Origin: Desulfovibrio sp. UCD-KL4C
Lineage (GTDB): Bacteria; Desulfobacterota; Desulfovibrionia; Desulfovibrionales; Desulfovibrionaceae
DNA: 64,000 nt
Reading direction: 5' to 3'
NCBI RefSeq assembly: GCF_006210265.1
Contig: NZ_VCNC01000002.1
Span: 372,001-436,000, forward strand
Shown here: positions 626 to 7,610 of the stretch, piece by piece
Layout of the letters: the number at the start of each line of letters is the position of its first letter
Numbering within the stretch: position 1 is the stretch's first letter
Notes under the pieces: model-generated
Databases searched by the model: none
What the model saw: the letters and a program-made list of their open reading frames with translations, nothing else
Told to the model about the DNA's origin: nothing
Position numbers and translations under genes: made by a program

Positions 626-1372
626 GTGCAAAAAAAGTTCTTTCCAATCATAATTATAACTGTACTGTTACTTGGATTAGCTGTTACCGGATATATACTT
701 CCAACACAGAAACAAAAAGTTCCGGTTAGAATTTTATTCCAAAACAGTGGCGGTAAGGTAATTTTCAAACATTTAAAGCACCACCAGATTTACGAGATTT
801 CATGCGATAAATGTCACCACGAGCGCAAAACAGCTAATAACGATCCTCTTCCATGCGGATCATGCCACCCGGAATCTTTTGACAAAGACTTTGTTCGCAA
901 TCACATAAATTCTTTTCCAGACAATACTTACTGCATAAAATGTCATCATGCAGAGCTTGGCAAACTCAATTTTAATCACGAAGCTCATGAAGAGCATGCT
1001 GACGACGATTGTCAGACTTGCCACCATGGGGAGGACATTGAAGAAGAACTTCAGAAATGTTCAAACTGCCATACCAGTGCCGGAACAAAAGAAATTCCAA
1101 GTATCAGAGATGCAGCACATGATCGCTGCGTAAAATGTCACGAAGGTCAGTTCAAAGACGGACTCAAAGGCTGTAATCCATGTCACAAAATGAAAGACAT
1201 GACCCATTACAAAGGCGACACAACTCCATGTGCACAATGCCACCAAAAGCCAAGTAAAGATCTAGTGCTGAATCGTATGAGTGCATTCCATGATCAATGT
1301 ATGATATGCCACAGAGAACTTAAAAAAGGGCCGTATAAAGATAATGATTGTGACAAGTGTCATTTAAGATAA
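626..1372 (+). CDS. dhcA: Membrane-anchored decaheme c-type cytochrome of the Rnf locus
   Basis: The 248-residue protein has an N-terminal hydrophobic segment (about residues 6-26, without a clear cleavage site). Ten CXXCH heme-attachment motifs follow, with many additional histidines suited to bis-His ligation. It starts at a GTG with GAGG 9 bases upstream. In Desulfovibrio a multiheme cytochrome precedes rnfC, and the gene there has been called dhcA. The predicted role is electron exchange between the Rnf membrane core and periplasmic cytochromes. It overlaps or abuts rnfC, so co-translation is likely. The heme count is read directly; the electron partner is inferred. Confidence 0.9.
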   Translation: MQKKFFPIIIITVLLLGLAVTGYILPTQKQKVPVRILFQNSGGKVIFKHLKHHQIYEISCDKCHHERKTANNDPLPCGSCHPESFDKDFVRNHINSFPDNTYCIKCHHAELGKLNFNHEAHEEHADDDCQTCHHGEDIEEELQKCSNCHTSAGTKEIPSIRDAAHDRCVKCHEGQFKDGLKGCNPCHKMKDMTHYKGDTTPCAQCHQKPSKDLVLNRMSAFHDQCMICHRELKKGPYKDNDCDKCHLR

Positions 1373-1389
1373 AGGCGGATACTTCCATT

Positions 1390-2544
1390 ATGAATCCTAT
1401 TTTTTCACTTATTCCATCAGAGCGCGGTCCGGTGCTGAAAATAAGAGATCAACATTTAAGTTCAGCGCTGTTGATATCTCTGGAAATTACTGGACTAAAA
1501 CCACTTACCGCAGTTGGTGAACTTGTCGCAAAAGGACAAAAAATTGCTTTTGATCATGAGAGCACACGTTCATCAGTTCACTCTTCAGTGTCAGGAAAAG
1601 TCCTAAACGTAAAAAAAGACTTTATTCTCATTGAAGAGCAAGGAGAGCTTGTTGCGGAGCCATTAACATTTAACACCACCGACAGTTCTTCCATGCTCGC
1701 AGACCTTAGAGACGCGGGGATTGACGTTAGCCGTTTTAAACAAGGATGTACTCTAATCATCAACACAGTTCCGGCAGAAGCTGGAATAGACGGACATAGA
1801 TTCTTAATCGAAGGATTTAATCATATAATGTGTGAAGGGTTGAATTTTCTAAAGAAAGCCCTTTCACCGAAAGCTTCAGCTATCGCCGTACCACAAGGCA
1901 TGGCATGGACTCTTCCGGGCTGCACCGCTCATGAAATAAAGCCGATCTATCCAAACGGATTATCTGCAATGATCATTAAGACTGTCACCGGAAAAGAAAT
2001 GCCTGCCGGAGTTTGCATTGTAGACGCTGCAACTCTTTATAGAATAGGGAGAACCGTTCACGGCAAACAGCCGGCAACCGAAATCATGATAAAAATCGGA
2101 AACACACTCTTTCAAGCGCCGATAGGCACAACAGTCGGACTATTAGTAAGCAAAGCTGGATATACTCTATCAGAAGGTGATAGAGTTATTCTAGGCGGTC
2201 CTTTATCAGGAAAAGCTGTCTACTCACTAAACCACGGAATTTCAGCGGATACGCAGGGAATAACCGTTATTACAGGTAACAAAGAACCTGTAACAAAGGA
2301 TTCACCATGTGTCGGATGCGGAGAATGTGTAATCAGATGTCCGGCTAGACTGATGCCGAACATGATCTCCAGACACGCTGAATTCGGGCTGTTTGAAAAT
2401 ACTAAGGCGTATTTCATCGGTTCATGTTTTGAATGCGGGCTTTGCGCTTATTGGTGCACGGCTAAGCGTCCCTTGCTGCAATATATTAGACTGGCCAAAA
2501 AAGAACTTTTCAGCAAACCAATACTTGAAGATCTTCGGGAATAA
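1390..2544 (+). CDS. rnfC: Electron transport complex protein RnfC (divergent, FMN/NADH loop absent)
   Basis: The C-terminal half carries the two RnfC ferredoxin-type clusters, CVGCGECVIRCP (Cys307/310/313/317) and CFECGLCAYWC (Cys346/349/352/356), which pass electrons in the peripheral arm. I chose the ATG at 1390, preceded by AGGCGG just after the cytochrome stop. An ATG at 1357 in the same frame would overlap the cytochrome gene and has no ribosome site. At 384 residues it is shorter than typical RnfC (about 440 or more). The glycine-rich GLGGAGFP loop and the following NGAECEPY motif, which bind FMN and NADH in RnfC/Nqo1 proteins, are missing. The aligned stretch reads AGIDVSRFKQG...NTVPAEAG. 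See the findings. Confidence 0.9.
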   Translation: MNPIFSLIPSERGPVLKIRDQHLSSALLISLEITGLKPLTAVGELVAKGQKIAFDHESTRSSVHSSVSGKVLNVKKDFILIEEQGELVAEPLTFNTTDSSSMLADLRDAGIDVSRFKQGCTLIINTVPAEAGIDGHRFLIEGFNHIMCEGLNFLKKALSPKASAIAVPQGMAWTLPGCTAHEIKPIYPNGLSAMIIKTVTGKEMPAGVCIVDAATLYRIGRTVHGKQPATEIMIKIGNTLFQAPIGTTVGLLVSKAGYTLSEGDRVILGGPLSGKAVYSLNHGISADTQGITVITGNKEPVTKDSPCVGCGECVIRCPARLMPNMISRHAEFGLFENTKAYFIGSCFECGLCAYWCTAKRPLLQYIRLAKKELFSKPILEDLRE

Positions 2545-2546
2545 AT

Positions 2547-3521
2547 ATGAAACCGATAAGCGGAGCCCCTGTTTTAACAGTTTCAAGTTCTCCTCATATT
2601 CATTGCGGGCGAACCATTAAAGGAACTTCTTTTGAAATACTGCTGGCCTTACTCCTCGCAGCAGGATTTGCTATCTGGCACAGCAATATACTTGCAATGA
2701 GAATTCTTGCTCTTTCATGCGTGGTCGCGGTCCTTACAGAAGCTGCCTGCCTACGTATAATGAAACGTGAAATTGAATCCGACAACTACACAGCTCTACT
2801 ATGCGGCCTTATGTTCGGATTTCTCATAGCACCAAGTTCTCCTTGGTGGCTTGTAGCTGTCGGTAGCTCGCTTTCAATAATACTGGGAAGAATGGTCTTC
2901 GGTGGTCTTGGAGGTTCTCCATTATGTGCTCCGCTAGTAGGCTGGGCCATCTGCAAAGTTTCATGGCCTGATCTTATGGATTTTGACATAACAATGCTGG
3001 GTTCGGAACTGACCTACCCGCTGAGTCAACTTAAAAATTTCGGTCCTGAAACACTAAACGAGTATTCCTTAAAATCATTATTATTAGGATTCCAGCTTGG
3101 CGGATCAGGAGCAGCGCAATCCGGTCCAATTCTTCTCGGTGGATTATACCTGCTAAGTCGTAAAATTATCCGACCCGATATCCCTTTAGCCTTTATTGCA
3201 GGTGTAACTTTCACCGCAGCGACTTTTTATGCAATATCTCCTCTTGATTACTGCTCACCGATTTATCACCTATTATGCGGAAGCACATTATTCGGAGCTT
3301 TCTTTCTTGCAACAGACGGTTCCTCTTCTCCTGTTGGACATATCCCGATGATTGCCTTCGGATTTATTGCCGGAGTACTGGTCATAATCATAAGAATTTA
3401 CGGAATATATCCTGATGGAGTTCCATTTGCCATATTGCTTGCAAATCTGACAACGCCACTACTCGAAAAAATCAGACCTAAACCCTTCGGTGGAATAACC
3501 AATATACATTTGCAGAGGTAA
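2547..3521 (+). CDS. rnfD: Electron transport complex protein RnfD
   Basis: This is a polytopic membrane subunit (324 residues) with the family segments FGGLGG (about 118-123), LATDG (254-258) and YPDGVPFAILLAN near the C-terminus. It begins two bases after the rnfC stop. In other bacteria RnfD holds FMN linked to a threonine within a D-x-x-(S/T)-(G/A)-(A/S)-T motif. Here the aligned segment reads DGSSSPV, so the acceptor position (residue 263) is valine in an ungapped alignment. The subunit is clearly recognisable and in the right operon position, but its covalent flavin site appears lost. Serines nearby could conceivably substitute. Confidence 0.92.
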   Translation: MKPISGAPVLTVSSSPHIHCGRTIKGTSFEILLALLLAAGFAIWHSNILAMRILALSCVVAVLTEAACLRIMKREIESDNYTALLCGLMFGFLIAPSSPWWLVAVGSSLSIILGRMVFGGLGGSPLCAPLVGWAICKVSWPDLMDFDITMLGSELTYPLSQLKNFGPETLNEYSLKSLLLGFQLGGSGAAQSGPILLGGLYLLSRKIIRPDIPLAFIAGVTFTAATFYAISPLDYCSPIYHLLCGSTLFGAFFLATDGSSSPVGHIPMIAFGFIAGVLVIIIRIYGIYPDGVPFAILLANLTTPLLEKIRPKPFGGITNIHLQR

Positions 3522-3524
3522 ATT

Positions 3525-4112
3525 ATGAATGAAACCTTTAAAATGATCGTGGTTCTTTCACTCTTATGCGGATTGTCAGGTTTTACCCTTGCAACCCTGA
3601 AAGATACTACCTCAAATAAAATTGAGGAACAAGTCATGACCTATGTGCAAGGGCCTGCAATCGATAAAGTTTTAAAAGGTTTTAGTAATTCTCCGGTTAA
3701 GGACCGCAAAAAATTTGTAATTCCGGGAACCAGAAAACAGGTCACGGTTTTCCCTGCAATTAAAGATAATAAACTTTTCGGAGTGGCTCTTGAAACATCT
3801 GCCAAAGGTTTCGGCGGAGATGTCGGTGTAATGGTTGGTTTTAATGTTGATAAGCTTAACCTTTTAGGCATCGGCATTACAGCTATGAAGGAAACTCCAG
3901 GCATTGGCGCAAGAATTGCCAAACACGGATTTACTGATCAATTCAAAGATCACTCAGCTTCTGTTGAACTCTCTTTCAAGGGGGGAACCATTAACGGCAT
4001 TGCAGGAGCAACTATTTCATCAACGGCGTCAGTTGAGGCGGTAAAAAAAGCAATTAATATCTTCAACCAAATCAAACCGCAAATCAATACGGCATGGACA
4101 AAGGGGTCTTGA
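3525..4112 (+). CDS. rnfG: Electron transport complex protein RnfG (FMN-binding domain)
   Basis: The 195-residue protein has one N-terminal membrane anchor (about residues 5-24) and a periplasmic FMN-binding domain. The flavin-acceptor motif is N-G-I-A-G-A-T (Thr163), compared with the usual D-x-x-S-G-A-T. The acceptor threonine is kept, but the Asp and Ser that help ApbE recognise the site are changed. The ETPGIGAR segment typical of the family is present (123-130). It starts four bases after the rnfD stop, with GAGG upstream. No apbE flavin-transferase gene is found in this window. Confidence 0.93.
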   Translation: MNETFKMIVVLSLLCGLSGFTLATLKDTTSNKIEEQVMTYVQGPAIDKVLKGFSNSPVKDRKKFVIPGTRKQVTVFPAIKDNKLFGVALETSAKGFGGDVGVMVGFNVDKLNLLGIGITAMKETPGIGARIAKHGFTDQFKDHSASVELSFKGGTINGIAGATISSTASVEAVKKAINIFNQIKPQINTAWTKGS

Positions 4113-4114
4113 TC

Positions 4115-4780
4115 ATGAGCAGATTTTGGAAAGAATTTTCTAAAGGATTATGGACCGATCTTGCTCCATTTAAAATAGTACTTGGTCTTTGTCCTATTCT
4201 GGCGGTTACTAAGAGTGCCGATAACGGATTTGGAATGGGAATAGCTGTAATTTTTGTCCTGACACTTTCAAATATCTTTGTATCAGCTGTAAGAAAAATA
4301 ATTCCTGCAAAAGTTCGAATTGCCTGCTTCATTGTTATCGCGGCTTCATTAGTTGTCGCGGTTGAATTACTGATGCAGGCATATGCATATCCGCTCTACC
4401 AGCAACTTGGTATTTTTGTTCCGCTCATTGTTGTTAACTGCATCATTCTCGGACGCGCGGAAGCATTTGCATCTAAAAATACTGTACTTCTTTCGGCTGC
4501 AGATGGATTAGGAATAGGGATTGGGTACACAATGTCTCTTACAGTTCTCGGAAGCCTGCGTGAACTTTTCGGGTATGGAACTCTTTTCGGTATTCAAATC
4601 ATGCCTGAAACTTTTAAGCCCTTTAAATTTATGATTGAAGCTCCGGGGGCATTTGTCTGCCTTGGAATCCTTTTAGCTGCTATGAACGCTTTTACAAACA
4701 GCCAGAGACACAAAAAAGGACAAGCCGTGCTTGATAACCCTACCCACGATTGTAAAACATGCGGCATATGCGGACAGTAA
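4115..4780 (+). CDS. rnfE: Electron transport complex protein RnfE
   Basis: This multi-spanning membrane subunit is 221 residues long from the ATG at 4115. That start has AAGGGG upstream and gives the family-type N-terminus MSRFWKEFSKGLW. An in-frame ATG at 4094 would overlap rnfG and is less likely. The cysteines in LGLCPILAV and VVNCIILGRAEAFA match those that, with RnfA, hold the intramembrane [2Fe-2S] cluster. The extreme C-terminus, HDCKTCGICGQ, adds three closely spaced cysteines (C-x2-C-x2-C). That is an uncommon tail that might bind metal. Confidence 0.92.
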   Translation: MSRFWKEFSKGLWTDLAPFKIVLGLCPILAVTKSADNGFGMGIAVIFVLTLSNIFVSAVRKIIPAKVRIACFIVIAASLVVAVELLMQAYAYPLYQQLGIFVPLIVVNCIILGRAEAFASKNTVLLSAADGLGIGIGYTMSLTVLGSLRELFGYGTLFGIQIMPETFKPFKFMIEAPGAFVCLGILLAAMNAFTNSQRHKKGQAVLDNPTHDCKTCGICGQ

Positions 4781-4810
4781 ATTAATAACTACGCACTGAG
4801 AGATCAGCAT

Positions 4811-5386
4811 ATGAAAGAATATTTCCTCCTTTTCATATCAGCCATATTTGTAAACAACATTGTTCTGGCCCAATACCTCGGCAATTGTCCGTTTATCGGG
4901 ACATCCAAAAATATCTCAGTTGCAATAGGCATGGGCAGCGCAGTTGTTTTTGTTGCCACAATGGCGGCTTCCATAACATGGGCTGTCCAGCAATATCTAC
5001 TAGCCCCGCTCGGACTGGAGTATCTGCAAACCTTAACTTTTATTCTGGTCATTGCTGCTCTGGTACAATTCGTTGAAATGTTTTTAAAAAAAGCTGTCCC
5101 TCCGCTATATAAAGCCCTCGGAATATTTCTACCGCTGATCACAACCAACTGCGCTGTTATGGGGATAGCTATTATCTGCCAACGTGAAGAATTTACTTTT
5201 GTTAAAACTGTAGCGTTTTCTTTTGCATCAGGGCTCGGTTTCATGCTCGCATTAATTGTATTATCTGCAATACGTGAAAAAATAGAAGTTTCCAGAGTAC
5301 CTGAGGCTCTAAAAGGAACACCAGTTGCTTTAATTATGGTAGGCCTAATGTCCTTAGCATTTTTTGCGTTCAAAGGAATGATCTGA
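4811..5386 (+). CDS. rnfA: Electron transport complex protein RnfA
   Basis: The 191-residue membrane protein has about six hydrophobic spans. The conserved segments AQYLGNCPFIGTSK near the N-terminus and TTNCAVMGIAI in the middle supply the two cysteines that, together with those of RnfE, hold the intramembrane [2Fe-2S] cluster. It is separated from rnfE by 30 bases and lies in the standard C-D-G-E-A-B order. Nothing in the sequence departs from the family. The cluster sites of A and E are intact although the flavin sites of C and D are not. Confidence 0.94.
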   Translation: MKEYFLLFISAIFVNNIVLAQYLGNCPFIGTSKNISVAIGMGSAVVFVATMAASITWAVQQYLLAPLGLEYLQTLTFILVIAALVQFVEMFLKKAVPPLYKALGIFLPLITTNCAVMGIAIICQREEFTFVKTVAFSFASGLGFMLALIVLSAIREKIEVSRVPEALKGTPVALIMVGLMSLAFFAFKGMI

Positions 5387-5417
5387 TGAAATCACCAGCA
5401 GACCTAGGCAGAACAAA

Positions 5418-7526
5418 ATGATCACATCATCAATACTTGTTCTTTTCGGATTAGGTTTTGTCGCGGCTGTAATTCTTGCTGTGGCTTCTAAAATTCTATT
5501 TGTAAAAGAAGATCCACGCATAGCTCTCCTGGAAGATGTTCTTCCAGGAGTCAACTGCGGTGGGTGCGGTTACGCCGGTTGCGGAGGGGCCGCCAACGCG
5601 GTTGTTGAGGGTAAATCAGGATCCAATGTCTGCGTAATCGGAGGGCTTGAGACGGCTAAGGCAGTTGCGGCAGTAATGGGTCTTGAAGTAGTAGAAATGG
5701 AACCGGAGCTGGCATTCCGAGACTGCACCGGAGGCCTTCGCGCTGAAGAGCTGTACCATTACGAAGGAGCTAAGGATTGTCGCGCACAGGCTCTCCTCTA
5801 CGAAGGAAGCAAAACTTGCCCTGAAGGGTGCTTAGGGTTTGGTACATGCGTATCCGTCTGCCCGTTTGATGCAATTCATATGGGGCCAGAAGGTTTACCT
5901 GTTGTTGATCCTCTTGCTTGCAAATCTTGCAGAAAATGCGTCGATGCATGCCCGCGTAATGTCCTTTCGATTATATCCATGAGTGAAAGGCTCCTTCATC
6001 AGGAAGAAGTCAACGATTGCCTTGCGCCGTGCCGTCAAAAATGTCCGGGACAGATTAATATTCCTAAATACATTGAGCTGGCAAGAAAAGGTGATTACGC
6101 AGGAGCAGTAAACACAATTCGTGAACGTAATCCATTACTTCTTGTATGCGGTCGAATATGCCCCCGTCCCTGTGAAGCTGATTGTCGTAGAGCACATGTT
6201 GATGAGCCTGTAGGAATCAATATGATCAAAAGATTTGTTGCAGACTGGGAAATGAAAAACAATCTTCGCCTCGAAATTCCATGCGCCCAAAAGACTGGTC
6301 ATAAAGTTGCCATTATCGGCGGAGGTCCGGCCGGACTTTCCTGTGCTTACTTCCTGCGCAGACTCGGGCACAGCCCTACAATTTTTGAATCAATGCCGAA
6401 ACTTGGCGGACAACTCCGCTACGGTATACCAGAATACAGGCTGCCTAAAAAAGATTTAGAATGGGAAATTCAAGGTATTCTCGACTTAGGAATGGAAGTT
6501 TACACAGATGTACAATTCGGAATAGACTTCACAATACAAAGCCTAGAGGAAGATGGATTTGAAGCGTTCTTCATGGGACTTGGTGCATGGTCTAGCGGTA
6601 ACCTGAGAATTGAAGGAGAAGAAGCAGAAGGTGTCCTTAGCGGAATAGAAATGCTCACATCTATAGGCCTTAACAACCCTCCTGAAATAGGCCCGAAGGT
6701 TTTAGTTATTGGAGGCGGCAGCACTGCAATAGATACAGCAAGAACAAGCATAAGGCTCGGATGTGATGTTACTATAATCTATCGCCGTACTCAAAATGAA
6801 ATGCCGGCCCATGTTGATGAGATTAAAGATGCGCAGGAAGAAGGTGTTAAGTTTATTTTTTTAACAGCCCCTATTCAGGTTGTTATAGATGAATATGGCC
6901 AAGCCTCCCACCTTGAATGTATAAAGATGAAACTTGGCAACCCCGATGATTCAGGGCGCTGCAGACCTGTTCCGATAGAAGGAACGGAGATCAGATACCC
7001 TGCCGATACTATTATCTCTGCGATTGGACAAAAACCTTCACTCTCCTGCTTTTACTCTGAAGATTCAGAAGAATGTCCAATCGATTTCACACGTTGGAAA
7101 ACAGTAAATGCCGATCCGGACACACTACAAACATCTGTCCCCAATGTTTTTGCAGGAGGAGACCTGTTCAGCGGACCTGATCTTGTTATTTCAGCAGTTG
7201 GAGCAGGACGCAGGGCTGCGCGGTCTATCCACTTTTTATTAACAAAAGGCAAAATACCTGTAGCCGATAATATTATGCGGAAGTTAATTCCTTATACACT
7301 ATTCAAAGATGTGGACGGACTTAATAATAAATGTCGTGTCCCGATGCCTCATCTTTGCGAGGGGGCTTACCGGATTTCGACGTTCAGGGAAGTAGAAGGA
7401 ACGTTATCCGAAGAACAGCTTAAGCAGGAAGCATCACGTTGTCTAAGGTGTGGTTTGATATGTTATGATAGAGATGTTTCCCTTGCTGATATTGTGACAG
7501 CAAGGGTAGGAGAAAAAGTAGAATAG
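5418..7526 (+). CDS. rnfB: RnfB fused to a GltD/NfnB-like FAD-NAD(P)H oxidoreductase
   Basis: This is a 702-residue fusion. Residues 4-28 are a membrane anchor. Cys47/50/55/72 form the RnfB N-terminal [4Fe-4S] site (CGGCGYAGC). Residues 134-178 carry an eight-cysteine ferredoxin domain (CPEGCLGFGTCVSVC and CKSCRKCVDAC). Residues 195-700 are a complete GltD/NfnB-type module: Cys201/205/209 and Cys244/248/252/256 for Fe-S clusters, an FAD Rossmann motif GGGPAG at 301-306, an NAD(P) motif GGGSTA at 432-437 and a closing AGGD FAD motif. Ordinary RnfB has about 200-330 residues. The fused part would move electrons between NAD(P)H and the RnfB ferredoxin clusters on the cytoplasmic side. It is the last gene of the operon. 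Confidence 0.93.
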   Translation: MITSSILVLFGLGFVAAVILAVASKILFVKEDPRIALLEDVLPGVNCGGCGYAGCGGAANAVVEGKSGSNVCVIGGLETAKAVAAVMGLEVVEMEPELAFRDCTGGLRAEELYHYEGAKDCRAQALLYEGSKTCPEGCLGFGTCVSVCPFDAIHMGPEGLPVVDPLACKSCRKCVDACPRNVLSIISMSERLLHQEEVNDCLAPCRQKCPGQINIPKYIELARKGDYAGAVNTIRERNPLLLVCGRICPRPCEADCRRAHVDEPVGINMIKRFVADWEMKNNLRLEIPCAQKTGHKVAIIGGGPAGLSCAYFLRRLGHSPTIFESMPKLGGQLRYGIPEYRLPKKDLEWEIQGILDLGMEVYTDVQFGIDFTIQSLEEDGFEAFFMGLGAWSSGNLRIEGEEAEGVLSGIEMLTSIGLNNPPEIGPKVLVIGGGSTAIDTARTSIRLGCDVTIIYRRTQNEMPAHVDEIKDAQEEGVKFIFLTAPIQVVIDEYGQASHLECIKMKLGNPDDSGRCRPVPIEGTEIRYPADTIISAIGQKPSLSCFYSEDSEECPIDFTRWKTVNADPDTLQTSVPNVFAGGDLFSGPDLVISAVGAGRRAARSIHFLLTKGKIPVADNIMRKLIPYTLFKDVDGLNNKCRVPMPHLCEGAYRISTFREVEGTLSEEQLKQEASRCLRCGLICYDRDVSLADIVTARVGEKVE

Positions 7527-7559: not shown

Positions 7560-7610
7560 TAAAAAAAGGCGCGAAGAGTAACCACTCTTCACGCCTAAAC
7601 TTTTTATTTT
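7560..7610. terminator. Bidirectional intrinsic terminator between rnfB and the 7624-8079 gene
   Basis: Stem AGGCG-GAAGAGT (7567-7579) pairs with ACTCTTC-CGCCT (7584-7596) with one mismatch. It is flanked by an A run on the left and CTTTTTATTTT on the right, so it serves both convergent transcripts. Confidence 0.88.

Follow-up and report, generated by a model that had tools for sequence, protein, structure and literature searches.

In the known Rnf complex, electrons pass from ferredoxin through RnfB and RnfA/E to the flavin mononucleotide (FMN) of RnfG, and then by way of FMN and riboflavin in RnfD, the RnfC clusters and the RnfC FMN to nicotinamide adenine dinucleotide (NAD) (PMC11889175). 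A different form has been described in D. toluolica and D. multivorans, in which RnfB, of about 700 amino acids (aa), has NAD-binding sites and both the NADH and the SLBB domain are missing from RnfC; the rnf cluster of D. multivorans also contains a cytochrome, and it was concluded that the mode of action must differ (PMC5109826). For many Desulfovibrionaceae, it was reported that rnfB is lost, with an oxidoreductase dependent on flavin adenine dinucleotide (FAD) in its stead, and that a decaheme cytochrome lies beside the operon (PMC11434368). In the present study, we analysed an rnf operon of Desulfovibrio sp. UCD-KL4C within a window of 64,000 nucleotides, by which we mean the whole stretch of DNA examined. 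The operon occupies positions 626-7526 of the + strand in the order decaheme cytochrome-rnfC-D-G-E-A-B, the products being placed by Pfam and NCBIfam. It is a member of the already described Rnf2-like kind with added features, and its probable role is to link electrons of the cytoplasm to the periplasm rather than to NAD.

The locus resembles the Tol2-type Rnf, or Rnf2, of Desulfobacteraceae (PMC5109826, PMC11887813) in its RnfB of about 700 aa with an NAD(P) module, its RnfC without NADH and SLBB domains and the cytochrome gene in the cluster. Hence the initial annotation was right to allow that some features might already be known, as the long RnfB and the RnfC lacking an NADH site are in print (PMC5109826). 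Unlike the Tol2 type, which has a cytochrome of about 15 kDa, the window operon has a decaheme cytochrome, a cysteine tail on RnfE and, in the same genome, a second fused paralogue with an eroded motif. Its gene order, with a multiheme cytochrome first, is that of the Desulfovibrio Rnf dhcA-rnfCDGEABF (PMC4841214, PMC4215793, PMC11434368), for which related genomes suggest an equally loop-less RnfC; unlike the window, D. vulgaris has an unfused RnfB (30.9 in the size column of a table in PMC10920352, taken as kDa). By its description, Methanosarcina acetivorans Rnf likewise has a multiheme cytochrome, does not react with NAD(P) and is proposed to hand its electrons to cytochrome c at RnfG (PMC4023990); it is archaeal, and the RnfC of its genome scores above the TIGR01945 cut-off. 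With canonical Rnf (A. woodii, C. tetanomorphum, A. vinelandii) the operon shares the RnfABCDGE core and the RnfA/E and RnfG sites but not the RnfC FMN/NADH site or the covalent-FMN threonine of RnfD. It is also comparable in principle to the Na+-translocating NADH:quinone oxidoreductase (Na+-NQR), where NAD(P)H likewise enters on a flavoprotein subunit and the RnfC-type subunit likewise has no FMN; however, NqrF has been described as FNR-like (PMC11889175), the window module is GltD-like, and the window RnfC keeps its iron-sulfur (Fe-S) cysteines.

Sites lost and kept along the complex

The operon was scored within a set of 112 distinct rnf operons, picked non-randomly by RnfB length and RnfC score, so that shares in it are not frequencies. 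Two came from the source genome, one from a named Desulfovibrio metagenome-assembled genome (MAG), 70 from the same class, 32 from the phylum and seven from named records (E. coli and six others); the class and phylum operons were chosen from searches of 149 and 198 genomes, respectively, and the fetched hits are a subset. Left out were L141 (which shares a contig with L016), L001-L013 and L015 (short, from the source genome), the outgroup L144-L163 and, for having no RnfC in the stretch, L019, L059, L061, L062, L067-L070, L075 and L124-L131. The RnfB of L103 is cut by a contig end, and this operon was counted apart from fused and unfused ones. Family f1 was taken as Desulfovibrionaceae, the family of the source genome, with f2 as a sister family within that order. 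The parts of the window operon up to RnfA are as follows.

626..1372, + strand: decaheme c-type cytochrome, class III-like and DhcA-like, with an N-terminal signal or anchor and 10 CxxCH
1357..2544, + strand: RnfC, 395 aa, lacking both the FMN/NADH loop and an SLBB domain, 8 of 8 Fe-S cysteines kept
1717..1764, + strand: deletion site of the glycine-rich FMN/NADH loop in RnfC (E. coli RsxC 146-157)
2547..3521, + strand: RnfD, Tyr157 (3015-3017) at the position of the covalent-FMN Thr, D257 kept
2925-2927, + strand: C127 of RnfD, at the position of the riboflavin-contact Asn
3525..4112, + strand: RnfG, acceptor Thr163 kept (4011-4013), with NGIAGAT differing from D..[ST]GAT
4094..4780, + strand: RnfE, cluster cysteines C33 and C116 kept, start probably at 4115 rather than 4094
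4811..5386, + strand: RnfA, C26 and C114 kept

The RnfC site was tested at 13 FMN/NADH positions in the numbering of E. coli RsxC (146-184), scored on an alignment. The window RnfC matches 2 of them, and the set fell into two groups, 25 operons with 12-13 matches (loop-intact) and 87 with at most 6 (loop-lost), with none in between. The window protein also scores 150 bits against TIGR01945, below the cut-off of 246, has no SLBB match in Pfam and reaches Complex1_51K only below threshold (24 of 31 bits). Its loop stretch is 50 residues long, compared with 62-64 in loop-intact RnfCs, and its main alignment to solved RnfCs begins at residue 133 (7zc6 chain residue 157), preceded by a weak N-terminal piece. 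All 68 loop-lost operons from f1 and f2 have the loop deleted outright, leaving 49-51 residues, and in the 19 others it was replaced in sequence (59-79 residues). The TIGR01945 score alone fails to split the groups, since 11 of these 19 exceed the cut-off. In the class, 100 of 149 genomes had a TIGR01945 match at E 1e-20 and merely five were above the cut-off, of which L025 and L026 (genomes G023 and G096) are loop-intact, while L018, L021 and L036 fail the residue test; part of the remaining matches are probably PduS-like proteins rather than Rnf. Both kinds of Rnf can coexist, as G023 and G096 each carry the loop-intact form without cytochrome and a loop-less fused form elsewhere.

The loss extends to RnfD. 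In A. woodii, T156 is the flavin acceptor and N123 and D249 contact riboflavin (PMC11889175). With T156 as reference and the two contacts placed by counting on the alignment, all three residues are present in 25/25 loop-intact operons; the acceptor Thr is kept in 3/87 loop-lost ones, the Asn in 31/87 and the Asp in 55/87. The cofactors of these membrane subunits were described as strictly conserved in a 2025 review of solved RNF and NQR (PMC12174285), to which the loop-lost RnfD looks like an exception, judging from these residues.

The Rnf core features, namely the RnfA/RnfE cluster cysteines and the RnfG acceptor Thr, are all present in the window operon. Among the loop-lost operons, RnfA C26/C114 and RnfE C26 are kept in 87/87 and RnfE C109 in 87 of 88 rows, with one gap (the duplicate L141 counted); RnfE was found in 24 loop-intact operons, four of which have Ala at C109. 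The RnfG acceptor Thr is present in 86/87 loop-lost operons, the remaining one having Ser, and was aligned in 21 loop-intact ones, with four gaps. The first open reading frame (ORF) of the operon matches Cytochrom_CIII, and a multiheme cytochrome, counted as an ORF with at least 4 CxxCH on the same strand within 3 kb of rnfC, accompanies 77/87 loop-lost operons versus 0/25 loop-intact ones. These losses and gains are not chance or artefact: chance and misassembly were ruled out by the same pattern in 87 of the 112 operons, which form one clade. The window RnfC is 77% identical to that of the named Desulfovibrio MAG, the single named relative that a locus search with RnfC brought up. The initial description of an RnfC without its loop, an RnfD without the acceptor Thr, a decaheme cytochrome heading the operon and intact RnfA/RnfE cysteines held in every part.

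Proposed electron exit and alternative outputs

From the sites kept and lost and the order of events on the tree, both of which are seen in the sequences, we infer an electron path, its direction, its ion coupling and a use of NADPH over NADH. The operon would be an ion-coupled oxidoreductase between ferredoxin (here also NADPH) and periplasmic cytochrome c, with electrons leaving at RnfG, and we consider this reading about equally likely to be right or wrong. Cytoplasmic electrons would enter RnfB from ferredoxin at the ferredoxin domain; in the window copy, NADPH at the fused FAD/NADP(H) module would offer a second entry or exit. They would cross via the RnfA/RnfE iron-sulfur cluster to FMN on the periplasmic RnfG, which would pass them on to the decaheme cytochrome and the pool of cytochrome c in the periplasm. 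In the second half of the usual U-shaped path (RnfD flavins, RnfC clusters, RnfC FMN, NAD), the FMN/NADH site of RnfC and the covalent-FMN Thr of RnfD have been lost, and RnfC would remain as a scaffold or side wire. Presumably the system is reversible, and an ion gradient with reduced periplasmic cytochrome could yield ferredoxin or NADPH. We favour an exit at RnfG because the kept sites end there, most of the lost ones lie beyond it and a multiheme cytochrome heads the operon. The loss of the RnfD Thr together with the RnfC site likewise points to RnfG, and not RnfC, as the place where electrons leave. The D. vulgaris Rnf has been suggested to act as a ferredoxin:cytochrome c3 oxidoreductase besides ferredoxin:NAD+ (PMC10920352), and attempts to show ion pumping from ferredoxin to NAD+ in D. 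alaskensis vesicles were unsuccessful (PMC4841214).

Several points weigh against an exit at RnfG. The eight RnfC Fe-S cysteines are kept in 112/112 operons, which is unexplained if the return leg is dead, and RnfD could still hold a flavin non-covalently despite the loss of the acceptor Thr. In ten of the loop-lost operons, there is no ORF with at least 2 CxxCH in the fetched stretch; as loop loss is one event on the tree, the cytochrome association rests on few independent changes. The D. alaskensis dhcA mutant is almost without phenotype (PMC4215793), which speaks against an obligatory role of the DhcA cytochrome. With sulfate as acceptor, D. alaskensis requires rnf for growth on H2, formate, ethanol, malate and fumarate (PMC4215793), and it was concluded that Rnf is unlikely to take electrons directly from H2 (PMC4841214). 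In addition, among 19 fused operons of the decaheme type, the RnfG motif D..[ST]GAT is departed from in 13 and apbE is missing from the locus in 18, the window included, which makes flavinylation of their RnfG uncertain. However, the motif departure says little, because 15/25 loop-intact operons depart from it too (four of the 15 being unaligned); apbE is absent from the stretch in 21/25 of these. The source genome has two apbE-family genes besides the apbE of its second rnf operon, and RnfG flavinylation in the decaheme fused operons may depend on an unlinked ApbE.

The changes in RnfD could also be read as those of an Nqr-like enzyme, in which RnfD would pass electrons to menaquinone, RnfC would be a scaffold like NqrA and the cytochrome would be accessory. 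NqrA is indeed an RnfC homologue without redox cofactors (PMC12174285), the near dispensability of dhcA in D. alaskensis agrees with an accessory cytochrome (PMC4215793), and loop-lost operons have other residues at RnfD positions that hardly vary in loop-intact ones, for example Trp (76/87) in place of Arg (23/25) at E. coli position 128. On the other hand, NqrB uses its own flavins for this path and the acceptor Thr is gone from loop-lost RnfD; RnfC retains its clusters, and the frequency of the multiheme cytochrome ORF given above does not suit an accessory role, so that we regard a quinone output as distinctly improbable.

The RnfB module and the order of events

The window RnfB has 702 aa (core 1-190, Fer4_20 201-282 and Pyr_redox_2 296-597 by Pfam), with the following parts.

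5418..5987, + strand: RnfB core, with a membrane helix, a CGGCGYAGC Fe-S domain and a ferredoxin domain
5988..7526, + strand: fused GltD/NfnB-like module, Fer4_20 at 6018-6263 and FAD motif at 6312-6338
6705-6743 and 6780-6809, + strand: NADP(H) motifs of the fused module
7440-7463, + strand: C-terminal CLRCGLIC of RnfB

The FAD GxGxxG and the Fer4_20 cysteines are in place, and GGGxTAxDxAR and YRRTxxEMPA are intact and resemble those of NfnI alpha; the initial identification of an FAD/NAD(P) oxidoreductase in RnfB is therefore sound. We take the YRR motif of such GltD/NfnB-like modules to be NADP(H)-binding, and NADPH entry at RnfB is plausible for the window operon from these motifs. Among the 46 fused operons, 27 have the YRR motif, the window included, mostly alongside GGGxTAxDxxR, and the NADP(H) motif is eroded in the other 19, comprising 15/15 f1 operons of the pentaheme type and L071-L074. 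Not every fused module would thus be able to bind NADP(H), by the look of the motifs. This erosion is the argument for seeing the fused module and parts of the complex as relics without a redox role. Such decay seems to us highly improbable, the least likely of the explanations weighed here, as the YRR motif persists in the window and 26 other operons and D. alaskensis needs rnf on several growth substrates (PMC4215793).

The closest solved relatives of the module are GltD-like stretches of a molybdopterin oxidoreductase, of NfnA and of a formate dehydrogenase subunit, followed by NfnI alpha and glutamate synthase. RnfB residues 203-611 align with NfnI alpha at E 1e-88, and an NfnB-like module could split NADPH electrons between ferredoxin and the Rnf chain; the stretches of larger enzymes match better than NfnI alpha, and we hold such a bifurcating input to be very unlikely.

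Closest to the initial annotation is the possibility that only the output was swapped: the U-path would be kept through RnfG, a non-covalent RnfD flavin and the RnfC clusters, and would end at the RnfB module docked on RnfC, making the complex a ferredoxin:NADP+ pump. The universal retention of the RnfC clusters and the intact NADP(H) motifs of the window are in its favour, and so is the distribution of the fusion, as RnfB is unfused in 25/25 loop-intact operons. Nevertheless, the 87 loop-lost operons comprise 46 fused ones (41 with cytochrome), 40 with a complete, unfused RnfB (36 with cytochrome) and the one cut by the contig end. The RnfC site is equally lost in the 40, the RnfD Thr is kept in 1/41 loop-lost operons not counted as fused, the NADP(H) motifs are eroded in 19/46 modules, and the RnfB-RnfC cluster distance in A. 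woodii exceeds 30 A (PMC11889175). We consider the swap unlikely. The 40 operons also rule out a strict coupling between RnfC loss and RnfB fusion; loop loss without an RnfB fusion is what the initial annotation had named as refuting its proposal.

The order of events was read from a tree of RnfA, RnfE and RnfD, built for 94 of the operons without the acceptor region and rooted on loop-intact operons. The loop-lost operons form one clade (bootstrap 100, Shimodaira-Hasegawa-like approximate likelihood-ratio test 99), and the tree carries one change of loop state, two of fusion and three of cytochrome presence. The earliest loop-lost branch is unfused (5 rows), followed by fused operons; a nested unfused clade of f1 and f2 (24 rows, 97/95) is sister to the fused clade of the window (29 rows, 99/93). 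Most economically, this is read as a single gain of the RnfB module followed by a single loss; on this tree the RnfC site was lost once, before the fusion, and the module disappeared afterwards in one clade. Three fusion changes were counted on a quick tree of 110 rows because it included L103, and a tree of the GltD-like modules neither supported nor contradicted a single origin of the fusions. Hence the proposed transfer of NAD(P)H chemistry out of RnfC into RnfB stands in part: entry of NADPH at RnfB is plausible here, but the chemistry did not simply move, because the site is lost in the 40 unfused operons and the tree puts this loss before the fusion.

That the module was split off in unfused operons was rejected, as no loop-lost unfused locus has a module-like ORF in the sequence covered 3' of rnfB (247 bases in L035, 1065 in L120 and 2.7-5.4 kb in the others). 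Six loop-intact rnf loci (L085, L086, L087, L089, L090 and L091) carry a separate GltD-like ORF, a possible setting for fusion; in the module tree these ORFs fall outside the fused RnfB modules. Four N-truncated relatives of the fused RnfB (L067-L070) have about 600 aa and intact NADP(H) motifs. L068 and L069 (G253, G221) are 600-aa proteins without its first 95 or so residues, and for L067 a read-through match extends upstream across stops. The neighbours of the L069 gene encode 2-oxoacid:ferredoxin oxidoreductase and succinyl-CoA ligase, a setting that suggests that its product is a soluble ferredoxin:NADP oxidoreductase. In a plasmid collection, none of 186 matching records reached 80% coverage of a full-length fused RnfB. 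AlphaFold models from two-row alignments had a mean predicted local distance difference test score of 29.5 (RnfC) and 31.5 (RnfB).

Additional features and place among Rnf types

Two further features of the window operon were listed.

4751..4771, + strand: C-terminal cysteine tail CKTCGIC of RnfE, seen in f1 and f2 operons only
7567..7596, no strand assigned: terminator-like hairpin directly 3' of rnfB

RnfE ends in CxxCxxC in 61 of 68 loop-lost f1 and f2 operons (65 with a relaxed pattern, L014 among them), compared with 0/19 other loop-lost operons and 0/24 loop-intact operons with RnfE found. The tail may bind metal or a further Fe-S cluster, and no report of it was found in the literature searched. 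No apbE follows rnfB at the hairpin; terminator-like matches around the operon did not exceed the number in shuffled sequence.

The source genome has a second rnf operon (L014, C2:92000-106000), with a 5-CxxCH cytochrome ORF, a loop-less RnfC 38% identical to that of the window, a fused RnfB of 704 aa (49% identical) whose NADP(H) motif is eroded, and apbE following. A third RnfC-like protein (L005, C1:286874-290485) belongs to the SLBB proteins, and its GAGGAGLPTHVK loop of the FMN type is intact; it adjoins an alcohol dehydrogenase and a shell-protein-like gene and is presumably PduS-like. The presence of a canonical RnfC elsewhere in the genome, which had been raised as a check, was sought by protein and family searches and none was found.

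Desulfovibrionaceae have been assigned to Rnf1 (PMC11887813), which the RnfC data of this sample contradict; neither the FMN/NADH site in RnfC nor the covalent-FMN Thr in RnfD, both features of canonical Rnf1, is present in the window operon. Within the phylum, all loop-lost operons fall in a single clade (100/99), whose members may share descent with the named Desulfobacteraceae Rnf2. Gene order and published subunit sizes suggest that the unfused clade is of the D. vulgaris/D. alaskensis type. The literature searched, which did not include the D. toluolica genome paper cited in PMC5109826, yielded no report of sulfate reducers losing the RnfD Thr, of loop loss in the unfused Desulfovibrio Rnf or of the order in which the changes occurred.

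In loop-lost unfused Rnf, the RnfC has no recognisable NAD(H) site and no other pyridine-nucleotide site was seen. We tentatively suggest, at somewhat less than an even chance, that nearly all Rnf of Desulfovibrionaceae and the sister family, the unfused form included, is not a ferredoxin:NAD+ enzyme but an ion-coupled ferredoxin:periplasmic cytochrome c oxidoreductase; on the same suggestion, this lineage would have branched once, gained the RnfB NADP(H) module, lost it in one clade and added the RnfE tail. Energy models of sulfate reducers assign Rnf the transfer of electrons to NAD+ from ferredoxin. Should nearly all Desulfovibrionaceae Rnf lack the NAD site, these models would need another acceptor, most simply the periplasmic cytochrome pool, which could also fit the need of D. 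alaskensis for Rnf on H2 or formate oxidised in the periplasm. The prediction is a covalent flavin on RnfG alone and none on RnfD, and this makes the ferredoxin:NAD+ label of Desulfovibrio Rnf testable.

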